A stretch of DNA of 64,000 nucleotides from Acidicapsa acidisoli. Lineage in GTDB: Bacteria > Acidobacteriota > Terriglobia > Terriglobales > Acidobacteriaceae. The stretch covers positions 868,001 to 932,000 of the forward strand of contig NZ_JAGSYI010000002.1 in NCBI RefSeq assembly GCF_025685625.1, read 5' to 3'. Both the position numbers and the translations under genes were made by a program. The first letter of the stretch is position 1, and every line of letters begins with the position of its first letter. The notes beneath the pieces are model-generated. The model saw only the letters and a list, made by a program, of their open reading frames with translations. It was not told where the DNA came from and searched no databases. Below are positions 995 to 10,707 of this stretch, one piece after another.

Positions 995-2008
995 ATGGTA
1001 CAACAACCTGATATTGAATGCGACACTTCCGTTAGTGCACCAACGACAACCGAATTTCCCCGGCACCCGCTGGAGGGTCCCAGACTCACGCTGCGGAGCA
1101 TTTTTTATCCATATGGCTTTCCGATTGAAATCAGGACCAACTCGGCCGACGTTCTGCGTCAATACGAAGCCATGTGGGGAATGTTCGAAAAGCAACACAC
1201 GACGGATCTCATTCGTGCGGATGTCCAGGTTGTCACCTCCGATGCAAACGTCTGCCCTCCTGCCCCTGCTTACAGGCTCATCCTTCCTCTCATGATTGGT
1301 TCGGCGGACGCTGACAACTACAGCATCGTCGATCTCGAGCGCTCCCACGCTTCGATCGTGATCTCACAGGCTGCACTGCGGAATCCGCTCTATGCACAAT
1401 ACTTCCTCCTCGGAGTTCCTGCCTGCTGCATTACTACGCGGTACACCACGCCAATACATGCCGGATGCGTGGGGCTGCACGGCCGCGGGGTGCTCTTGTG
1501 CGGCGATTCCGGCGCGGGCAAATCAACGCTCTCTTACGCGTGCGCCCGTGCCGGTTGGACCTACACCAGTGACGATGCCTGCTTTCTGCTCGATCAAGGC
1601 TTCGGACGTCGCGTCACGGGCAACTGCCACCAGGTACGCTTTCGTCCCACTGCTGTCGAGCTCTTCCCTGAACTCTCAGGGCTTGAGATCACGCCGCGAG
1701 CAGCAGGCAAGCCCTCCATCGAGCTCTCCACCCAACCGATGAGACACATCCGGCGCGCATCAACAATGGGCATAGATGCCATAGTCTTCCTCAACCGCAA
1801 TTGGGACCGGGCACCGCAGCTCGTCCCCGGCAGCCTGGAAGCTGCGCGCAAATCCATGCGTGAGGTGCTCTTTGGCTCCGTGGACACTCGTGCTGTGCAA
1901 CACAAGGCCATTGACCGGCTACTGACTGCACCGCTCTATGAGCTTCGCTATACGAAGCTCGACGACGCTATCAGTCTACTCCGAGGACTGGTCGGGGATG
2001 GGCGATGA
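995..2008 (+). CDS. HPr kinase-like P-loop protein
   Basis: This 337-residue protein has a Walker A loop GDSGAGKST at about residues 169-177, preceded by HGRGVLLC and followed by the acidic pair in YTSDDACFLL. This is the arrangement of the HPr kinase/phosphorylase C-terminal kinase fold. No N-terminal HprK domain is obvious. Proteins of this kind in non-Firmicutes often lack an HPr partner, and some phosphorylate RiPP precursors or act in regulation. The start is supported by AAGGAT at 985-990, 4-5 bases before the ATG. The stop overlaps the ATG of the next gene (ATGA, 2005-2008), so the MFS transporter is probably translationally coupled. The substrate is unknown. Confidence 0.75.
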   Translation: MVQQPDIECDTSVSAPTTTEFPRHPLEGPRLTLRSIFYPYGFPIEIRTNSADVLRQYEAMWGMFEKQHTTDLIRADVQVVTSDANVCPPAPAYRLILPLMIGSADADNYSIVDLERSHASIVISQAALRNPLYAQYFLLGVPACCITTRYTTPIHAGCVGLHGRGVLLCGDSGAGKSTLSYACARAGWTYTSDDACFLLDQGFGRRVTGNCHQVRFRPTAVELFPELSGLEITPRAAGKPSIELSTQPMRHIRRASTMGIDAIVFLNRNWDRAPQLVPGSLEAARKSMREVLFGSVDTRAVQHKAIDRLLTAPLYELRYTKLDDAISLLRGLVGDGR

Positions 2009-3357
2009 TCGAGCTGTCGATTGACTCCGCGCCGCCCGACGCGATGACTCCGTCGCTCTGGAGAGATCCTTCGGGATGGATGCGTGACAAACAGCTCAGC
2101 CGCAGCTACTGGGTCTTCTTTTCCGCTGCATTTTTCTTCGACGCGGGCTTCGCTGTCTACTATTTCCTCTTCAACCTCTACCTTCTCGACTGCGGCTATC
2201 ATGAACGGCAAATCGGGTGGATCGGCGGAGCACTCACTCTGGGCTCGGTCGTCGGGACATTGCCTGCAGGAGCCCTCACCCGGCGCATTGGCATCGAGCG
2301 CGTACTCACCGTACTCTTCCTCGTTGCACCGCTTCTGCACGCGATTCGTGTCTTCTGGATATGGGAGCCGGCACAGATCGGTCTTGCCTTTGTCTCCGGC
2401 CTGGCAATGAGCAACTGGGGCGTCTGCTTTCTTCCGGCCATCGCACGGCTCACGACCGAAAAGAACCGCACCGCCGCATTCAGCCTCATCTTCTCGGTAA
2501 GTGTCGGCACCAGCATGTTCGGCGGCATCGTATGCGGATATCTTCGTAACGTTCTCGCTATGGCGGGAGTTGCCATGCAGCCTGTCGATGTGAAGCGGTT
2601 TATCCTCCTCGCAGCTTCCGTTACCGTCCTGCTTGGACTCTTTCCTCTGTTTCGCCTCCGCATACCGGAGCAAATTTCAGAGACATCTCCAGAGGAAAAG
2701 ACGGCATATCCAGATGCTTCGTGGATCGACCGCTTGCGCCTGCCTCCAGTTCGCTCATTTCTTGCGCGTTTCCTCTTCTGCATGGCGCTTTGGTCCGCGC
2801 TCCTGGCTGCGTTTACACCCTTCGCCAATATCTATCTTGCACGCGATCTGCACATCCCGATGGAACAGATCGGCCTGCTCTTTTCCGTTGTACAAGTAGT
2901 GCAGCTCTGCATGGGTCTGCTTACGCCGATGGTCTTCCGTGCAATGGGACTGGTCAAGGGCATCGCGGCAATGCAGGTTGCCGCAGCCCTCTTGCTCTGG
3001 GCCATGGCTGCCGTAACAGAAGCTCGCCTTGCTGTTGTGCTCTATCTCACCTTCTCAGCAGCGCAATGGATGAGTTCACCCGGACTCTACAACCTGCTCA
3101 TGAGCGCAACGCCGGATGGAGAACGAAGTTCGGCTGCGTCGATGACGCTCTTTCTCAACGCGTTGGCTTCCTCGGGCGCTACTGCTACAGCCGGCCTGCT
3201 CTTCACACGCTTCGGTTATCCGCCAGTCTTCGTCGGTTTGGGCGTTGGAGCGGTCGTAAGCGCCATGCTCTTTCTACTGCTCATGACACAACCGCAGGAA
3301 AGCAGTTCCGGGCAGGATGCTGCTGGTGATCAGCATCGCGCCCAGTGCTCGCTGTAG
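2005..3357 (+). CDS. MFS transporter
   Basis: This 450-residue, highly hydrophobic protein has about twelve predicted membrane segments in two halves, separated by a polar loop near residues 220-240 (ISETSPEEKTAYPDASW). A typical MFS loop 2-3 signature follows the second helix (GTLPAGALTRRIGIERVL). It sits in the inner membrane and is probably a proton-coupled exporter or importer of a small molecule. It overlaps the HPr-kinase-like gene by four bases (ATGA), so the two probably act together. The gene ends nine bases before the convergent cytochrome-like gene, and no clear terminator is seen between them. The substrate is not predictable. Confidence 0.85.
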   Translation: MIELSIDSAPPDAMTPSLWRDPSGWMRDKQLSRSYWVFFSAAFFFDAGFAVYYFLFNLYLLDCGYHERQIGWIGGALTLGSVVGTLPAGALTRRIGIERVLTVLFLVAPLLHAIRVFWIWEPAQIGLAFVSGLAMSNWGVCFLPAIARLTTEKNRTAAFSLIFSVSVGTSMFGGIVCGYLRNVLAMAGVAMQPVDVKRFILLAASVTVLLGLFPLFRLRIPEQISETSPEEKTAYPDASWIDRLRLPPVRSFLARFLFCMALWSALLAAFTPFANIYLARDLHIPMEQIGLLFSVVQVVQLCMGLLTPMVFRAMGLVKGIAAMQVAAALLLWAMAAVTEARLAVVLYLTFSAAQWMSSPGLYNLLMSATPDGERSSAASMTLFLNALASSGATATAGLLFTRFGYPPVFVGLGVGAVVSAMLFLLLMTQPQESSSGQDAAGDQHRAQCSL

Positions 3358-3366
3358 ATCTACACC

Positions 3367-3675
3367 TTACGGATTAAAGAACTTGAGTAGCTTTTGTTCG
3401 TCTTCCCGGCTGAGGTTTGCGCGCACCCGCATGTGACGCACAATCGTGCCAGAGATTCGCGGCGAGAAGCCTTCCGGAGCAGTATGGCAACGCGAATAGT
3501 TCTGTTCAAAGACACGTTGGCCTTCCTCCTCAGGCTGTGTAACAGTCTTAGCATTGGTCGCGGCTTTTTGACCGGCCGGCACTGCCGTCTTAGATTGGGC
3601 ATGCAGCGAAGTCAATATAGGAATGAAGAGAGCGCCAAGCACCACGACACCGGTTGCAATATGTTTGCGACTCAT
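3367..3675 (-). CDS. Small exported cytochrome c-like protein with a degenerate heme-binding motif
   Basis: This 102-residue protein has a signal peptide (MSRKHIATGVVVLGALF...LHAQ) and one compact cytochrome c-like domain. The heme site reads NYSRCHTAPEGF at residues 59-70. The second Cys (63) and the proximal His (64) of CxxCH are present, but the first Cys is Tyr60 (codon TAT at 3496-3498, one transition from TGT). A candidate distal ligand Met82 lies in VRHMRVR. I chose the ATG at 3675 rather than 3693 because it overlaps the upstream stop as ATGA (3672-3675) and follows AAAGGAAAG, which indicates coupling to the barrel gene. It may bind heme through one thioether, or it may have lost heme. 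Confidence 0.7.
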   Translation of the reverse strand: MSRKHIATGVVVLGALFIPILTSLHAQSKTAVPAGQKAATNAKTVTQPEEEGQRVFEQNYSRCHTAPEGFSPRISGTIVRHMRVRANLSREDEQKLLKFFNP

Positions 3676-4730
3676 TCCATCTTTCCTTTCCATGTCGGGA
3701 ATAGAAAGCGATACACTACGCCCGTCTCCCAGATATTGCGGTTACCGGAAGAAGAAAACTGACGTGAGTAGCTGGTCAGAATCCTCACGTTGTGAGGCAA
3801 GTTGTAGTCGAGCCCGAAGTCGACCCGCTGCGTATTGGTAAGCGGCAGGCCATCACTCACGATGGTGTCGCGCCGAAAGGTCTGCTGAATGCGAAAAACG
3901 GGCTCAATACGCCCTGCCCAGCTGTCCAGCCCGCCAAACTTCTGCAGCCTGTAGTCCGCTTCAACCCAATAGCCCTGTGCATGATGGCCACGGGCAAACT
4001 CTGAACGGAGCCGAAAGGCCGTATTCGCAGGCTCCCACCACACATGCGCTCCATAGAAGTTCTCATGCGTGCCCTGCAGGAGGCGATTGTAGGAGAGCCC
4101 AACCTCCAGTCCCTTGTTCGGCAGATAGAGGCTTAAGCGTCCTCCTGAAGAACGCTGAGAATTGAATTGCTCGTTCCCGCTTCTGGCTGAAAAATAAGCG
4201 GCATAATCGATCGAGTACGAATGGCGAGCAATCGCGGAACCACGCAACTGCCCACCTAGACCAGTGCCAGTCGACATCAAGCCCAGGCTGGCGATCAGCG
4301 GTCCATCCTGTAGATTGTTGATCCACACCGGCGATAGCCGCTCGTTGTAAGTACCGAACGGGATCAGGAAGCTCCCGCCCACGACGGTCAGATGTGGCGA
4401 GGCAATGTAATCTCCCTGCATATAGGTAAGCCCGACGAAGTGCGTGTGACTGTATCCTGGCTGCCCATCGCCGTTCGGAGAAAAGCTCTCCGTCAACGCT
4501 GCTCGCGACTCAAAGAGCAGATGAGGCCCAAGCGGCGCCGCGATCAGCGGTTCAAGGATCGGCAAGTAAGTCGTATTTCCGCCATTTGTGCTGGTAAGAA
4601 AGCCCCCGCCACCCGAAATCAAGGGCACATCCTGCGCGGACGCTGAGTGTGCCACACAAAGGAAGACAAAGCCGGCAATCGCTATCGTCTTTTTATCAGA
4701 CCGAAGACAAGACTGTATTCGACGTAACAT
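3672..4730 (-). CDS. Outer-membrane beta-barrel protein, uncharacterised
   Basis: This 352-residue protein has a signal peptide ending near SASAQ (about residue 33). The rest alternates short amphipathic strands with Gly/Ser/Asn turns and ends in an aromatic-rich segment (WETGVVYRFLFPTW), which fits a monomeric outer-membrane barrel. No family was recognised with certainty. It is upstream of, and overlaps by four bases, the cytochrome-like gene, so the pair is probably one transcript. It diverges from the CuA gene across a 281-base region. The context suggests a porin-like partner for a periplasmic redox protein; that is inference. Confidence 0.7.
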   Translation of the reverse strand: MLRRIQSCLRSDKKTIAIAGFVFLCVAHSASAQDVPLISGGGGFLTSTNGGNTTYLPILEPLIAAPLGPHLLFESRAALTESFSPNGDGQPGYSHTHFVGLTYMQGDYIASPHLTVVGGSFLIPFGTYNERLSPVWINNLQDGPLIASLGLMSTGTGLGGQLRGSAIARHSYSIDYAAYFSARSGNEQFNSQRSSGGRLSLYLPNKGLEVGLSYNRLLQGTHENFYGAHVWWEPANTAFRLRSEFARGHHAQGYWVEADYRLQKFGGLDSWAGRIEPVFRIQQTFRRDTIVSDGLPLTNTQRVDFGLDYNLPHNVRILTSYSRQFSSSGNRNIWETGVVYRFLFPTWKGKME

Positions 4731-5011
4731 GGCATAACTCTAGCCGGATGCGCATCGCAGCATGTCTTTCCATCATCTGCTCTTTGTCAGTTGAATGTCA
4801 TCGCGTGTTGGCCCTGGATGACCGCGCGACGCACAACAGAACGATGAAACAGAACAATGACAAATGCCTGACCGACAGATGACAACTCCGAATCCAGCAG
4901 TAGATACAGTCATCTCAGTACAGCCAGCAATCGGCACATTGATGTCATCCCATCGCCTTAGCCGTGAGATGACTGGATGTCCGCAACACCACACTCACAC
5001 AAGGAGCACTG
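4731..5011. promoter_or_regulatory. Divergent intergenic region with repeated WGTCATC heptamers
   Basis: The region separates the leftward barrel/cytochrome pair from the rightward CuA gene, so it should hold promoters for both. The heptamer (A/T)GTCATC occurs five times in either orientation: 4796-4802, 4878-4884 (reverse), 4908-4914, 4943-4949 and 4968-4974 (reverse). The third and fifth belong to a 10-base inverted repeat, AGTCATCTCA at 4908-4917 and TGAGATGACT at 4965-4974. These are candidate sites for the response regulator encoded at 5693. No convincing -35/-10 pair was fixed. Confidence 0.4.
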
Positions 5012-5374
5012 ATGAAGCCCAGATTCCTACTGCAGGTGCTGCTTGCCGCAGCTTCATTAGCCGGAATCGTTCCTGCGGCAGGACGCGCTCAGGCTCCGCC
5101 AAGACGCATCGAAATCACAGCCAGCCGCTTCAACTACAATCCTGGCACGATCACGCTTAAGAGGGGCGAACCGGTTATCCTGGTTCTAAAAAGTGCGGAT
5201 GTCGCGCACGGGCTTCGCTTTCGTGACCTGCATGTTGATCTGAACGCGCGCGCGGGCAGCACCGCGCAGATCGGCTTCACCCCTGACAAAATCGGTGAAT
5301 TCATCGGTCATTGTTCCGTTTTCTGCGGCTCAGGACACGGATCCATGCAACTCAGACTGCACGTGGTGAACTAG
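5012..5374 (+). CDS. Stand-alone periplasmic CuA-type cupredoxin (COX2-like domain)
   Basis: This 120-residue protein has a signal peptide (to about AGRAQ, residue 27) followed by a single cupredoxin domain. The ligand set is complete for a binuclear CuA centre: His66 in DVAHGL, then Cys101, Cys105, His109 and Met112 in CSVFCGSGHGSM (C-x3-C-x3-H-x2-M). That pattern defines the CuA domain of cytochrome c oxidase subunit II and nitrous-oxide reductase. There is no membrane helix pair and no cytochrome domain, so this is a soluble or secreted CuA carrier. AAGGAG lies at 5000-5005 before the ATG. The neighbours are a cytochrome-like protein, two barrels, a two-component system and a second copper protein. 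Confidence 0.85.
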   Translation: MKPRFLLQVLLAAASLAGIVPAAGRAQAPPRRIEITASRFNYNPGTITLKRGEPVILVLKSADVAHGLRFRDLHVDLNARAGSTAQIGFTPDKIGEFIGHCSVFCGSGHGSMQLRLHVVN

Positions 5375-5692
5375 CCATCCGCGTCCAGCCCACATTCGGC
5401 ATCTTCTACCAGCCGGAAGCCTTGGCGAGCCGGAGATGTACAAGCATTGAATGCGCTCGATCCATCTTCGCGAGAGTGGGCGGTGGTAACGCGGAGCGCA
5501 TCCTCTGCCGAGGTGTCCTTGACCGCAGTTAACCCCGGCGTCATCCAGGCGTGGGTGGAGCATCGTTCTCATCGGCGTGCTGGGGAACCGGGAAATGTCA
5601 CCGGATTGTAATTTTAAGCCGTTCTTTTCTACAAAATAGCTCCAGAGTTCCCCAGAAGGGCACACAATAGAGAAAGAGAGGCTGCAGACAAC
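5375..5692. other. 318-base intergenic region, no gene seen
   Basis: The region lies between the CuA gene and the response regulator. Frames here are short and show no family resemblance. It is the likely promoter region of the regulator operon. One CGTCATC, a near match to the repeated heptamer upstream of the CuA gene, occurs near 5540. No hairpin terminator was found. Confidence 0.5.
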
Positions 5693-6430
5693 ATGGTCAA
5701 CGATCTGGAAATGGCACCCGGCATGCAAGAGACGTCTCTGGCTGCAAACAGCCGCGGCACAATCCTCGTCGTCGAGGACGACCCACGACTGCAAAAGGTG
5801 CTCCGCAGAATCTTCGCCGACGAACAATACACCGTCGTCGTCGCCGGGGACGGCCAGACTGCACTCGACCTTTTTCGTCTCGAGCATCCGCTTGCCGTCA
5901 TCCTGGACCTGATCCTCCCCCAGATCTCCGGCCGCGAGCTCTGCCAAACCTTCAAGAGCATTTCAATCGATACGCCCGTCATCGTACTTAGCGCGATCAC
6001 CGAAGTCGTCGACAAGGTTCTCCTTCTTGAGCTTGGCGCCGACGACTACGTCACCAAGCCCTTCAGCCCACGCGAACTCACCGCGCGGGTGCAGGCTGCC
6101 GTGCGCCGCCAGCATAAGCCGAGGACCGCCGCGACCTATCGCTTCGCCGACTGCGAGATCGACTTCAAGCGTATGACCGCCTGGCGAGCTGGTAATCCTG
6201 TTGTGCTCACTTCTCACGAGTTCAAACTGCTCAAATTCTTTATTGAAAACGCAGAGCTAGTTCTTACCCGGGAGGTCTTGCTCAACGAAGTCTGGGGCTA
6301 TAACGCGTATCCAACTACCCGCACCGTGGATAACCAGATCCTGAAGCTTCGTCAAAAGCTGGAATCCGATCCGGCGACCCCCCGCCATTTACTCACCATC
6401 TACGGGGCAGGATACAAGTTTGTTCCTTAA
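5693..6430 (+). CDS. OmpR/PhoB-family response regulator
   Basis: This 245-residue regulator has a receiver domain at about residues 20-135. It has the acidic pocket EDD, a phosphoacceptor Asp in VILDLILP, Thr/Ser in VLSAI, and Lys in YVTKPFSPREL. A winged-helix DNA-binding domain follows at about 145-243, with the signature LTSHEFKLLKFFIE...TREVLLNEVWGY...RTVDNQILKLRQKLE...GAGYKFVP. A start at 5711 is also possible, because the first 18 residues precede the receiver fold. The gene overlaps the downstream kinase by 11 bases, so they form a cognate pair. It probably controls the surrounding copper/outer-membrane genes. Confidence 0.93.
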   Translation: MVNDLEMAPGMQETSLAANSRGTILVVEDDPRLQKVLRRIFADEQYTVVVAGDGQTALDLFRLEHPLAVILDLILPQISGRELCQTFKSISIDTPVIVLSAITEVVDKVLLLELGADDYVTKPFSPRELTARVQAAVRRQHKPRTAATYRFADCEIDFKRMTAWRAGNPVVLTSHEFKLLKFFIENAELVLTREVLLNEVWGYNAYPTTRTVDNQILKLRQKLESDPATPRHLLTIYGAGYKFVP

Positions 6431-8306
6431 CGGAAATATGGACGAAGCGACACGGCCCGCACCTTCCGACAACTTGCATGCGCTCGCTGCTGACCTTGCG
6501 CCACGGTCACCCGGCATTGGCACCTATCTGCTGCTCGTCTTCGCCATGGCCCTGGTGACAATCCTTGTCACCGGCCTCTCGCTCCTGCTCATCCGTCACG
6601 AGCTTCACCAAGAGGTTTCTGAAAATCTTTCCCAGGATCTGACTCACTCCGTCACTACCTTTGAGGACATGCAGGGCGAGCGCATCAGCGCACTCGATCG
6701 CGAAAATGCGCTTCTGGCCAATTTGCCCACGCTCAAAGCCCTCATGACCAGTCGAGACGACCTTACGATCCAGGATGGCGCCGTCGAGTTCTGGAATACC
6801 AGCGGCAACGATCTCTTCGCACTCGCGGATTCAAGCGGCCGCGTCATCGCCGCATACACCCGCGGCTCCTCTTCAGACGCCGCCTTGCGTCAAGGGCTTA
6901 GTTCTTTGCTGACAGCTCCAGGCAAGCATTATCTGATTGATGGAAACTCCCTCTACGCCTGCTCCGTACGTCCGCTCTTCTTCGGTAGTGAAGAGACCGG
7001 AACCCTTCTCGGCTATGTCATCAGCGGCGCCTCTATCGAACGCACAGTGCGGCAGATCAGTAGCCCCACGGGTGTAGAAGCGGCCTTCCTGAGCGGCGGC
7101 CAGGTCGTCGCCAGCACCCTCGATCCCGCCACCCTCACCGACGTCGTTCGCCAACCGGGGTTGCTTGGCGGCAAGCCGGGGGCTCCTGCCACTGTCGAGT
7201 CTGGAAGCACGCACTACCTCGCCGCCGCACAAGACCTATCCTCTTCAGCGACCGCGCCCCTGCAGCTTGTCGTGCTCAAATCCTTTGCCCCGGCTGAGCG
7301 TTCCATCAACCACATCGATCGCATGATCCTCTCTGTCGGCGCTCTCGCTCTTCTCTGCGGCGCCGCGCTGATGATCGTCCTTTCGCGCATCCTCACCAGG
7401 CCCCTCGAACAGCTCTCTCGCAGCGTACGCGCCTTTGCGATCGGCAATGGCAACTATCGCATACCCCGTTACGGCACCCGCGAAGTCCGCCAGCTGAGCA
7501 CAGCCTTCTCCGCAATGCGCCACGAGATCCAGGATGCAAACCAGGCCCGTCTTGAGGCCGAACGTCTCGCCACCATTGGCCGCATGGCCAGCTCTATCTC
7601 CCACGACTTCCGCCACTACCTCGCCTCGATCTATGCCAACGCGGAGTTCCTGCTCACCAGCCGTATCTCCGAGCCGGAGCGCGCCGAGATTTTCGACGAA
7701 ATTCGCATCGCTGTTCTCGGAGCCACAGAGATGATCGAATCGCTGCTCATCTTCAGCCGCACCGGGCAGAAGATCTCGCGCTCTTCCGAATCCGTCTCCA
7801 AAATCCTGGAACAGGCGATCGCTCTTGTCCGCGCGCATCCTGACTCAGATGGCGTCCGCATCGTGTCTCGCAGCGACGATGCGACACAAACCTACGCCAT
7901 GATCGACGGCAAACAGATCGAACGCGGGATCTTCAATCTGCTGCTGAACGCCTGCCAGTCCACACGCCTCAACGGCGAGACACCCACAGTGACCGTTATT
8001 CTGCAGGCCGAAGAGACACAGGTTATCCTTAGAATCGCTGACAACGGTGAAGGCGTGCCGGAAAGCATTCGCGGCAATCTCTTTGAACCCTTCGTCAGCG
8101 TCGGTAAACACAAGGGCACCGGCCTCGGCCTCACCCTCACTGCCTGCATCGCCGCCGAGCACGGAGGCGATATCGTCCTCCTCAGCAGCCGTCCCGGCGA
8201 GACAGTCTTTCAGATGCGCATAGCTCGCGATCCGCAGCTGTCTTCTGCCGATGTTTCTTCAGACACAGAACAACACGAGCGGATGATGTCCCATGAGACA
8301 ACATGA
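6420..8306 (+). CDS. Membrane sensor histidine kinase
   Basis: This 628-residue kinase has one membrane helix at about residues 35-60, a periplasmic sensor domain of roughly 230 residues, and a second helix at about 300-322. HAMP-like and dimerisation segments follow, with the phosphoacceptor His near residue 394 (SSISHDFRHYLAS). The HATPase domain carries N (NLLLNACQS), G1 (DNGEGVPE) and G2 (GKHKGTGLGLT) boxes. The preferred start is TTG at 6420, with AGGA at 6409-6412 seven bases upstream; ATG 6438 is the alternative. It overlaps the regulator before it and the porin after it. The ligand sensed is unknown; the context suggests copper or redox state. Confidence 0.9.
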   Translation: MFLNGNMDEATRPAPSDNLHALAADLAPRSPGIGTYLLLVFAMALVTILVTGLSLLLIRHELHQEVSENLSQDLTHSVTTFEDMQGERISALDRENALLANLPTLKALMTSRDDLTIQDGAVEFWNTSGNDLFALADSSGRVIAAYTRGSSSDAALRQGLSSLLTAPGKHYLIDGNSLYACSVRPLFFGSEETGTLLGYVISGASIERTVRQISSPTGVEAAFLSGGQVVASTLDPATLTDVVRQPGLLGGKPGAPATVESGSTHYLAAAQDLSSSATAPLQLVVLKSFAPAERSINHIDRMILSVGALALLCGAALMIVLSRILTRPLEQLSRSVRAFAIGNGNYRIPRYGTREVRQLSTAFSAMRHEIQDANQARLEAERLATIGRMASSISHDFRHYLASIYANAEFLLTSRISEPERAEIFDEIRIAVLGATEMIESLLIFSRTGQKISRSSESVSKILEQAIALVRAHPDSDGVRIVSRSDDATQTYAMIDGKQIERGIFNLLLNACQSTRLNGETPTVTVILQAEETQVILRIADNGEGVPESIRGNLFEPFVSVGKHKGTGLGLTLTACIAAEHGGDIVLLSSRPGETVFQMRIARDPQLSSADVSSDTEQHERMMSHETT

Positions 8307-9930
8307 ATCCACGCAGAGAGTATCTGACACCAGATATCTCCCTCTTCTTTGTCACCCAGGGCCATGGCTCCTTGCGATGATGCTGGCAGCTTTCTCATAC
8401 ACACTCTCCGCGCAGGCTCCGGCACAGGATCCTCCCCGGCCCGATCTCTCCACACAGATTGAGAACCTGACAAGAATTCTTGAGGTTACCCAGGCACAGC
8501 TTGAAGAGTCGCAGCGCCAGTTGAACGCAGTCCGCGAGCAACTATCTGCCCTGCGGAAGCAGATGTCGCAACAGGAACCGGCCTCGCCTTCCGTTCCAAC
8601 CATGAGCGGCCCCGTCGCGGAACTTGCCGCTGGAACAAGCGTGGCTGCGGACTCATCCTCCTCGTCCAGTTCTACCGACGTAGCTATCAACGAACTTCGT
8701 GAGCGCCAAGCGCTCCAGGAATCGCAGATCGCCACCCACGAGCAGGCAAAGGTCGAAAGCGCATCGAAATACCCGGTCAAGATTACCGGCCTCGTGCTCT
8801 TCAATGGCTTCGTCAACACCAGCCAGGTTGACGTCTCGGCTACGCCCACCGTTGCCGTCGGCGGAGCAGGCAGCACCGGGGCCACAATCAAGCAGACTAT
8901 CCTGGGCTTCGACGCTCGCGGACCGCACATCTTCGGTGCCTCCAGCTTCGCTGATCTGCGCGTCGATTTCTCCGGAAGCTCACAATCAAGCATCAGCCCC
9001 GGGAGCTTTGCCGGGCTCTATTCCGGCAATTCCGCTCTGCTCCGCCTCCGCACCGCACACGCCGCTTTGCAGTGGTCCAACACTGAGGCATTCTTCGCCT
9101 TAGATCGCCCAATAGTAAGCCCCGATTCGCCAACGTCTCTCGCTGCCGTCGCCGAGCCGGCGCTGGCCTGGTCGGGCAACCTCTGGACCTGGAATCCACA
9201 GATCGGCCTCACCCGCGACATTCCCTTCGGAACATCGCAGGGACTGCGTCTACAGGCCGCGCTGATCGACGTATCCGATCCTCCAACAACTCCCATCATC
9301 CCCTCCTCTACATCCGCCAGCAGCACGCCCCCGGGCACGGCGGAGCAGAGCCGTTGGCCGGGTGTCGAAACGCGTATCGCTCTCTTCCGCTCCGGCACGG
9401 CGGAAAAGGAAAATCATTTTGGCCTCGGGGGCTACTACGCTCCGCACCGGTTTGCTTACGGAAAGGACTTCGACAGCTGGGCCGCAACAGTCGATACCAA
9501 CCTGCATCTTCCCGCCGGCCTTGAGTTCACCAGCAGCGCCTACCGCGGCCTCGCCCTTGGAGGACTCGGCGGCGGAGCCTACAAGGACATCGCGTACTAT
9601 ATCGATTCAAACTTCGACTTCTACATCCATCCGCTCGATAGTGTCGGAGGATGGGCTCAGCTCAAGGAACGGATCAACAACCGCCTTGAGTTCAATGCCG
9701 CCTTCGGCACAGATATGATCTTCGCGCGCCAACTGCGCCGTTATGCTCTCTCCACTGGAAGCATCTACCAGAACCTCGATGCCACTCGGACATTCACTGG
9801 CAATTTCATCTATAGTCCGACCGCATCGCTGCTCTTCTCCGTCGAATACAGACGACTTGAGAGTTCGCCCGTCTCCGGCACTACAGCCACCAGCAATATC
9901 TTTGGCATTGCCGCTGGATACAAATTCTGA
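8293..9930 (+). CDS. Outer-membrane porin-like protein with N-terminal coiled coil
   Basis: This 545-residue protein has a hydrophobic export signal at about residues 20-42 and a coiled-coil stretch at about 50-100 (QIENLTRILEVTQAQLEESQ). A Ser/Thr-rich linker follows, then a barrel of about 380 residues ending in the aromatic motif NIFGIAAGYKF. The layout resembles DcaP-type trimeric porins, in which the N-terminal coiled coil sits in the periplasm. The ATG lies inside the kinase gene (14-base overlap), so it is co-translated with the two-component system. Its role is probably diffusion of a specific solute, or contact with the periplasmic copper proteins encoded nearby. Confidence 0.75.
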   Translation: MRQHESTQRVSDTRYLPLLCHPGPWLLAMMLAAFSYTLSAQAPAQDPPRPDLSTQIENLTRILEVTQAQLEESQRQLNAVREQLSALRKQMSQQEPASPSVPTMSGPVAELAAGTSVAADSSSSSSSTDVAINELRERQALQESQIATHEQAKVESASKYPVKITGLVLFNGFVNTSQVDVSATPTVAVGGAGSTGATIKQTILGFDARGPHIFGASSFADLRVDFSGSSQSSISPGSFAGLYSGNSALLRLRTAHAALQWSNTEAFFALDRPIVSPDSPTSLAAVAEPALAWSGNLWTWNPQIGLTRDIPFGTSQGLRLQAALIDVSDPPTTPIIPSSTSASSTPPGTAEQSRWPGVETRIALFRSGTAEKENHFGLGGYYAPHRFAYGKDFDSWAATVDTNLHLPAGLEFTSSAYRGLALGGLGGGAYKDIAYYIDSNFDFYIHPLDSVGGWAQLKERINNRLEFNAAFGTDMIFARQLRRYALSTGSIYQNLDATRTFTGNFIYSPTASLLFSVEYRRLESSPVSGTTATSNIFGIAAGYKF

Positions 9931-9969
9931 GGTGATACAACTCTGATGGAAAGCCGGGTATAAGTTCGG

Positions 9970-10707
9970 ATGAATAACGCACGATATTTGCGATACGCAC
10001 GATCTTTGTGCTGGTTTCTGTGCGCTTCGCTGTGTCCTGCCACTGCGATGGAGGCCCACTCACGCCCGGCAGGCGAACAGGGCGCTGAGATACGTCTCCA
10101 TCTGACCTGGCCGCATACGACCGTCCACCACGCTGTCCCTGCGGTCCTCTGGCTCGAGCCACTTGCGGGAACCCCAGCCGTTCCCTTCATCTCCAGCGAA
10201 CACTACACTCTGGCGCAGAAGAATCGCATGTTTCTTCCACACCTGCTCGTGGTGCCGGTAGGAGCAGTGGTCCAATTCCCCAACAAGGACCCTTTCTTTC
10301 ACAATGTCTTCTCGCTTTTTGACGGAAAGCGCTTCGACCTCGGCCTTTATGAAGCTGGCTCCAGCAAGTCCGTCAACTTCTCACGTGAAGGCGTCTCCTA
10401 CATCTTCTGCAACATTCATCCGGAGATGAGCGCCGTTGTTGTCGCGCTCTCCAACTCGCTCTACGCCGTCGCAGACCACAACGATACCTTCTTGCTCACC
10501 GGCATCCCTTCGGGCGACTACAGGCTGCATCTTTGGATCGAAGGTATCCGCCTCTCGGCCCTGGACGCGCTGAGCCGACCCGTGCATATTACCACGGGTA
10601 TCGTGGACCTCGGTGAGCTCAACATCCCAGTAAGCTCACCACAGGAAAAGGGTCATACCAACAAGTTCGGCCAGCCGTACGCGCCACCTTCACAATCTCC
10701 CTACTAA
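9970..10707 (+). CDS. Periplasmic type-1 (blue) copper protein, methylamine-utilisation/plastocyanin-like
   Basis: This 245-residue protein has a signal peptide ending around residue 30. The cupredoxin core carries His111 (DPFFHNVFS) and the loop Cys147-x2-His150-x2-Met153 (CNIHPEM), the amicyanin/plastocyanin-type ligand set of a mononuclear blue copper site. Residues from about 165 (FLLTGIPSGDYRLHLWIEG) form a short carboxypeptidase-regulatory-like Ig fold. It would act as a one-electron carrier in the periplasm. It starts 39 bases after the porin gene and closes the rightward operon. Its 3' end faces the convergent beta-helix gene. Confidence 0.8.
   Translation: MNNARYLRYARSLCWFLCASLCPATAMEAHSRPAGEQGAEIRLHLTWPHTTVHHAVPAVLWLEPLAGTPAVPFISSEHYTLAQKNRMFLPHLLVVPVGAVVQFPNKDPFFHNVFSLFDGKRFDLGLYEAGSSKSVNFSREGVSYIFCNIHPEMSAVVVALSNSLYAVADHNDTFLLTGIPSGDYRLHLWIEGIRLSALDALSRPVHITTGIVDLGELNIPVSSPQEKGHTNKFGQPYAPPSQSPY

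Follow-up and report, generated by a model that had tools for sequence, protein, structure and literature searches.

A conserved gene set of porins, cytochromes and cupredoxins with its own two-component system in Acidobacteriaceae: a candidate periplasmic and outer-membrane redox module

The window analysed here, a 64,000-nucleotide stretch of the Acidicapsa acidisoli genome, carries at 3367..10707 (counted from its first letter) one copy of what we read as a conserved, co-regulated gene set of the Acidobacteriaceae and their relatives that forms a redox module of the periplasm and outer membrane, a reading to which we give a probability of roughly 0.6. The locus comprises an outer-membrane porin (BARREL) and a small cytochrome-family protein (CYT) on one strand and, on the other, a stand-alone CuA-type cupredoxin (CUA), a response regulator (RR), a histidine kinase (HK), a coiled-coil porin (PORIN) and a second exported cupredoxin, a putative type-1 copper protein (T1CU); relatives usually contain an eighth member, cytochrome c1. 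Since the neighbourhood is conserved and promoter repeats are shared, the association of these genes goes beyond chance. The module proteins are expected from their sequences to transfer electrons and to bind metal and heme, and at the cell surface the set probably serves to move or to sense electrons. The window locus itself is probably an eroding copy of the module. That seven genes share one locus had been put forward in a sequence-only reading of the window; all seven open reading frames (ORFs) are present in this interval, and their neighbourhood recurs in relatives.

Conserved neighbourhood

With the BARREL protein as the sole query, we fetched 55 loci, of which 51 are acidobacterial (L050-L100), three come from Mariprofundus (L101-L103) and one from Hyalangium, the last four being weak matches. 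Neighbouring genes were tallied at E 1e-5 within the fetched stretches with their 10-kb flanks, and since many stretches end at contig ends or at the 10-kb flank, the counts are lower bounds. CYT was found in 49 of the 55 loci, CUA in 28, RR in 27, HK in 22, c1 in 21, T1CU in 16 and PORIN in 15. Because some of the tallied matches are low-identity ones to other proteins (four for RR, three for HK and one for T1CU), close counts are given for the 44 closer loci (L050-L093; the more distant set is L094-L104), in which CYT was found 42 times, CUA 28, RR 23, HK 19, and PORIN and T1CU 15 times each. BARREL and CYT lie on the same strand within 400 bp of each other in 41 of 49 cases. All eight families occur together in 8 of the 44 closer loci, seven with a full-length c1 and one (L060) with a c1 remnant. 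The sequence-only reading had named gene order in related genomes as the check to make, and the comparison revealed a shared neighbourhood, not scattered homologues. As judged from these sequences, the cluster falls into two parts that can be linked but also occur apart, one for redox (BARREL, CYT, CUA and c1) and one for sensing (RR, HK, PORIN and T1CU).

Promoter repeats

Direct repeats of the TGACA type with an 11-bp period are the kind bound by PhoB/OmpR-type regulators. Upstream of BARREL, CUA and RR (pooled, window left out), pairs of TGACA half-sites are spaced 11 bp apart in 73 cases, 22 bp in 44 and 33 bp in 18, and any other spacing accounts for at most two pairs. Strict boxes in L050-L093 precede BARREL in 37/43 cases, CUA in 17/28 and RR in 9/24, with controls of 0 for the reversed motif and 0 to 1 for off-by-one spacings. 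When at most one mismatch is allowed, boxes precede BARREL in 42/43, RR in 20/23 and CUA in 17/28 cases, the mean of a base-shuffled control being at most 0.5; the corresponding counts for other genes are 0/15 for T1CU, 0/21 for c1, 1/22 for WZA, 0/21 for WZZ and 0/10 for MFS. Strict BARREL boxes are found in 0/9 cases of the distant set, where no close RR is in reach, a correspondence confounded by ancestry.

The boxes follow the arrangement of the genes. CUA with a promoter of its own has a box in 14 of 16 cases, and CUA downstream of CYT in 3 of 12. CYT genes apart from BARREL are boxed in 7/8 cases versus 1/34 for adjacent CYT genes when a spacing of 22 is allowed (Fisher 2e-6, not corrected for relatedness). 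The same comparison gives 1/8 versus 0/34 for strict boxes at spacing 11 only, and 6/8 versus 1/34 for one-mismatch 11-bp boxes, for which controls at 10, 21, 12 and 23 bp give 0.

Within the window, an exact repeat TGTCA-N6-TGTCA with the 11-bp period (4785..4800, + strand) lies in the BARREL promoter, three half-sites TGACA/TGACC/TGACA in 11-bp steps (4858..4884) lie in the CUA promoter, and the one-mismatch direct repeat TGTCACCGGATTGTAA (5596..5611) lies in the RR promoter, where relatives have the repeat at the same place. The 64 kb contain seven one-mismatch 11-bp pairs in all, and four of these belong to the boxes just listed. The whole genome of 7.1 Mb contains 14 exact boxes, against 3 for the reversed control, with one exact box ahead of each of its three barrel copies. 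Six of the 14 lie near module copies (binomial P 5.6e-9, on 80 kb and with limits set after the sites had been seen), one of the six being 0.8 kb beyond the fetched stretch L123.

Viewed by eye, the redox genes often sit within a larger cluster with genes for Wza/Wzz-type polysaccharide export, B12-binding radical SAM proteins, a methyltransferase, a nucleotidyltransferase (NTP) and an HprK-like protein. Such clusters are present at L037, L038, L041, L050, L055, L063 (the barrel locus of Acidicapsa dinghuensis, NZ_JAGSYH010000003.1) and at copy D of the A. acidisoli genome itself (G000:C4:420500-440400, L123), and several of their genes bear the same promoter box.

Sensor half

RR (5693..6430, + strand) is a PhoB/OmpR-type response regulator with a receiver and a Trans_reg_C domain in Pfam, and its recognition segment TVDNQ(I/V/L)LKLRQKLE is common to all 23 close RRs read. 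HK (6420..8306, +) is a membrane histidine kinase in which HAMP, HisKA and HATPase_c score above cut-off; its periplasmic sensor resembles dCache_3 (PF14827), at 22.4 bits against a cut-off of 25.7, which is passed in two of six orthologues scanned. PORIN (8293..9930, +) is modelled with low confidence as N-terminal coiled-coil helices followed by a beta-barrel (predicted local distance difference test, pLDDT, 63; predicted template-modelling score, pTM, 0.55). T1CU (9970..10707, +) is an exported cupredoxin from a family annotated as 'methylamine utilization protein'; its Copper-bind match in Pfam stays at 12.5 bits, below the cut-off of 21.2, and a weak match to PDB entry 5fc9 has E 0.0066. 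Its predicted ligands H111, C147, H150 and M153 are invariant in 15 of 15 aligned relatives. Together with the CuA string of CUA, this His, Cys, His, Met set agrees with the earlier proposal of two complete copper sites of different types, as predicted from ligand residues.

It is conceivable, with a substantial minority chance, that the two halves are separate systems, in which RR, HK, PORIN and T1CU form a self-contained sensor whose many targets simply include the redox genes. T1CU is widespread, with matches at E <= 1e-20 (more distant paralogues included) in 92 of the 120 genomes of the family, and in the 30 best-scoring T1CU loci PORIN adjoins in all 30, whereas BARREL and CYT are present in only three; these 30 loci were fetched with 1.5-kb flanks only, so that farther neighbours were out of view, which reduces the weight of this count. 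Boxes ahead of NTP, RSAM, HprK and OAR genes also point to separate halves. Against such a separation, the T1CU-PORIN pair is present in 15 and a close RR in 23 of the 44 closer BARREL loci, and copies B and D of the same genome retain T1CU fragments beside CYT or BARREL.

The occurrence of T1CU relatives beyond the Acidobacteria bears on the same question. They lie on 47 plasmid records and are annotated, where so named, as 'methylamine utilization protein'. In four proteobacterial regions that were opened, the next gene encodes an EAL-domain protein in all four, and DUF3034 and a truncated hemoglobin are present in three; the three EAL proteins that were scanned all match dCache_3, two of them above cut-off. 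That proteobacterial T1CU relatives adjoin a GGDEF-EAL sensor with dCache_3 favours separate halves. A direct comparison of the window HK sensor with four GGDEF-EAL proteins by blastp and phmmer gave no significant match (best E 0.29, blastp), and the shared dCache_3 assignment is therefore a matter of Pfam alone. On that assignment, the sensor half has predicted proteobacterial counterparts, in which the same cupredoxin family stands beside a dCache_3 sensor. The proteobacterial plasmid operon (L183, L184, L185 and L187) pairs the cupredoxin with a dCache_3-HAMP-GGDEF-EAL protein, usually together with a DUF3034 barrel and a truncated hemoglobin, and is possibly a copper- or gas-linked sensor acting through cyclic di-GMP.

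Redox proteins

CUA (5012..5374, +), of 120 amino acids (aa), matches Pfam COX2 (PF00116) with 33.9 bits against a cut-off of 22, with Cupredoxin_1 also above cut-off, and its best solved relatives are the CuA domains of Thermus ba3 (E 4e-9). The ligand string C-x3-C-x3-H-x2-M is intact in the window protein and in 27 of 27 CUA frames uncut by the locus end, in line with the stand-alone CuA protein proposed earlier. Pfam and NCBIfam scans found no CoxA-like gene among the window ORFs scanned, other neighbourhoods being viewed by eye only. Elsewhere in the class (L040, L045, L046, L048 and L049), the CuA gene adjoins, by eye, genes resembling those for a metallophosphoesterase, a sigma factor and an anti-sigma factor, and c1 accompanies it in four of these five loci. 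A Janthinobacterium CUA relative that follows a 72-aa cytochrome was rejected, as its first CuA cysteine is absent.

In relatives, CUA is directly followed by cytochrome c1, a protein of ~165 aa matching Pfam Cytochrome_CBB3, with CxxCHG in 20 of 21 genes. Of the 28 loci with CUA, 20 have a complete or almost complete c1 and one (L060) has a truncated c1; in the other seven c1 was not found, one of these stopping at the locus end and two showing weak remnants. In the window, c1 is deleted except for its last 19 codons and stop (5391..5447, +; 63% across the 19 aa, with E 0.001 against a small database).

CYT (3367..3693, - strand) and BARREL (3672..4730, -) are separate ORFs with a slight overlap. 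CYT belongs to a family of exported small monoheme cytochromes (export signals of window proteins were judged by eye) and has no significant Pfam match. It keeps the HMRVRA segment with its conserved Met, and its heme site reads N-Y-S-R-C-H (Y-x-x-C-H), with no CxxCH; CxxCH is present in 49 of 49 CYT relatives from the 55 loci. The earlier description of the locus thus stands for the seven ORFs and the copper-site motifs, and needs amending where the CxxCH of CYT is lost and where c1 had been overlooked. BARREL has no Pfam or NCBIfam match. Its AlphaFold2 model predicts an outer-membrane porin of 16 strands with moderate confidence (pLDDT 68, pTM 0.68), and a Foldseek search with this model places the general porins OmpU, OmpF and OmpM1 among the best matches (TM 0.46-0.56). 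An apparent BARREL-CYT fusion in L095, suggested by a long CYT frame, was rejected because the two matches lie in different frames. The Mariprofundus homologues (L101-L103), at 25-27% identity, have a kinase and a receiver nearby. At L101:9311-14249, a 489-aa coiled-coil porin distantly like BARREL precedes a gene of binding-protein type and one for a hybrid kinase; the one Mariprofundus kinase scanned, from L101, shows CHASE4 below cut-off and not dCache_3.

The composition of the set could alternatively indicate copper handling, with CUA and T1CU as scavengers or chaperones, both barrels as copper-permeable porins and the kinase as a copper sensor. This is an unlikely alternative: it would fit a regulon that joins two exported cupredoxins with invariant ligands to a pair of outer-membrane proteins and a sensor kinase, but two cytochrome families of the set have heme motifs (CYT 49/49, c1 20/21), no copper ATPase or CusABC-like gene was noticed by eye in the neighbourhoods (no profile search was made), and RR reaches only 149 bits against the cut-off of 279 for the heavy-metal subfamily TIGR01387. 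Copper handling alone was set aside because the heme motifs are invariant in relatives.

Ahead of the locus, at 995-3357, the window contains genes for an HprK-related protein (TIGR04352, 40 bits, below cut-off) and a major facilitator superfamily (MFS) transporter, which recur beside the locus in 22/55 and 10/55 loci of relatives, respectively.

Four decaying copies in one genome

A genome-wide search for other copies brought the number in A. acidisoli to four. Copy A, in the window, has BARREL, CUA, RR, HK, PORIN and T1CU open, a Cys-to-Tyr change in CYT and a deleted c1. Copy B (C2:1533k) has a broken BARREL, CxxRH in CYT, CUA ligand changes from His to Asp and from Met to Val, an open c1 and fragments of T1CU. 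Copy C (C2:1552k) has CUA and RR open and c1 broken, with BARREL and CYT not found. Copy D (C4:430k) has BARREL and CYT open, the latter with CxxCH, no CUA found, a T1CU fragment and an open c1 without leader, whose new start looks by eye like the NTP gene. Although every copy is incomplete, each component is still open in one or more of the four: the barrel is open in A and D, a heme-competent CYT is present in D, CUA is open in A and C, and c1 bears CxxCH in B and, without its leader, in D. The four-copy set is in reciprocal decay within one genome.

As its heme Cys is lost and c1 is gone, the window copy is not an intact module. We think it improbable that the window CYT is instead a working single-cysteine (xxxCH) cytochrome. 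Its ORF is open and its conserved core is kept apart from the Cys-to-Tyr change, but both Cys are kept in 49 of 49 relatives, c1 was lost alongside, the three other copies are also decaying, and a one-base change such as this could also be an assembly error.

Discussion

Several observations weigh against reading the locus as one copy of a conserved, co-regulated redox module. CUA is out of reach in 16 and a close RR in 21 of the 44 closer loci, and 8 of the 28 CUA loci lack c1 or have it truncated, one of them at the locus end; given these gaps, parts may be dispensable or dispersed. Strict boxes also precede NTP (12/24), RSAM (4/7), HprK (5/21) and OAR (3/13) genes, at least partly owing to divergent promoters shared with BARREL, and the regulon would therefore be wider than the redox genes. 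The BARREL and CUA box counts are non-independent because one intergenic region is common to both in 10 loci, and the species compared are related to one another. RR scores similarly against the MtrA, RpaB and PhoB models, all below cut-off. Finally, the window cytochrome may be dead, in which case the window copy alone cannot support electron conduction. The earlier notion of a periplasm-to-outer-membrane redox or copper module with its own sensor accordingly survives in its conserved neighbourhood and shared repeats, and is qualified by the damaged window copy and the two linkable parts.

It is very improbable that the set belongs to a phosphate-starvation regulon with the repeats as its Pho boxes, and this reading was set aside: TGTCA direct repeats with an 11-bp period do resemble the PhoB box, but none of the 14 exact boxes lies near pst genes of the same genome, including the sole PstC match over cut-off (C2:984371-985318, with a sub-threshold transporter gene adjoining), and there is a box in the promoter of the locus RR itself.

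In the redox-module reading, the PhoB-type RR of the locus would bind the TGACA repeats and control its own operon (RR, HK, PORIN and T1CU) as well as the redox operons (BARREL and CYT; CUA and c1). The lipoprotein c1, CUA and CYT could then act as one-electron relays linking periplasmic carriers with a site at or within the outer-membrane BARREL, and T1CU, with the dCache_3-like HK and the coiled-coil PORIN, may report the copper or redox state of the periplasm. A more specific and doubtful version, which we offer tentatively, is a split outer-membrane conduit under two-component control, in which a 16-strand porin works with a mini-cytochrome that is a protein of its own, the CuA protein and the lipoprotein cytochrome c supply the pair in place of multihemes, electrons are exchanged with extracellular iron or another acceptor, and T1CU provides the redox input of the kinase. 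If true, the split conduit could account for the reduction of ferric iron that has been reported in Acidicapsa species. A. acidiphila and A. ferrireducens, by name members of the same genus, dissolve schwertmannite reductively when oxygen is limiting (PMC8790237). We regard the link between the gene set and this activity as a lead, a candidate and not an established cause. Few envelope redox systems have been assigned in Acidobacteria, which are abundant in soil. With conserved genes under apparently joint control (for a porin, a mini-cytochrome, a CuA protein, a cytochrome c and a sensor linked to a cupredoxin) and a promoter box that can be read from the sequence, the present set represents a directly testable regulon.

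Comparison with known systems

The sequence-only reading did not recognise the locus as a named system, and we found none either. Our literature search, restricted to open-licence papers, did not find the gene combination, the promoter box or the split architecture; the protein families are already known, and the combination, box and split architecture are new relative to the literature searched. Cyc2 has a barrel of 16 strands, like that predicted for BARREL. The Cyc2/rusticyanin/cytochrome c iron-redox chain of Acidithiobacillus (PMC8790237, PMC10654088) likewise brings together an outer-membrane barrel and a small cytochrome with a single heme, besides a cupredoxin in the periplasm and a cytochrome c. 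The set described here differs in having separate genes for cytochrome and barrel, a cupredoxin of the CuA and not the rusticyanin type, and a two-component system, and no oxidase or bc1 gene was seen in the locus. Membership of a split Cyc2 family was set aside, since the domains are not fused and the comparison with Cyc2 is one of architecture, not sequence.

CoxB, which in caa3 types joins a CuA domain to a cytochrome c, resembles the pairing of the COX2-family CUA with the class-I-like cytochrome c1; here, however, each of the two is a small exported protein of its own, and we saw no CoxA-like gene in the locus. The proteobacterial 'methylamine utilization protein' operon has the cupredoxin family in common with the present set, as well as an outer-membrane barrel and a sensor that combines HAMP with a dCache_3-type domain, but its output is GGDEF-EAL instead of a histidine kinase and response regulator, and its barrel is from another family. 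MtrCAB and PioAB conduits likewise encode a barrel and a c-type cytochrome together, whereas the cytochrome of the present set is monoheme and not multiheme, its barrel has 16 predicted strands, and no gene for a surface decaheme cytochrome was seen.

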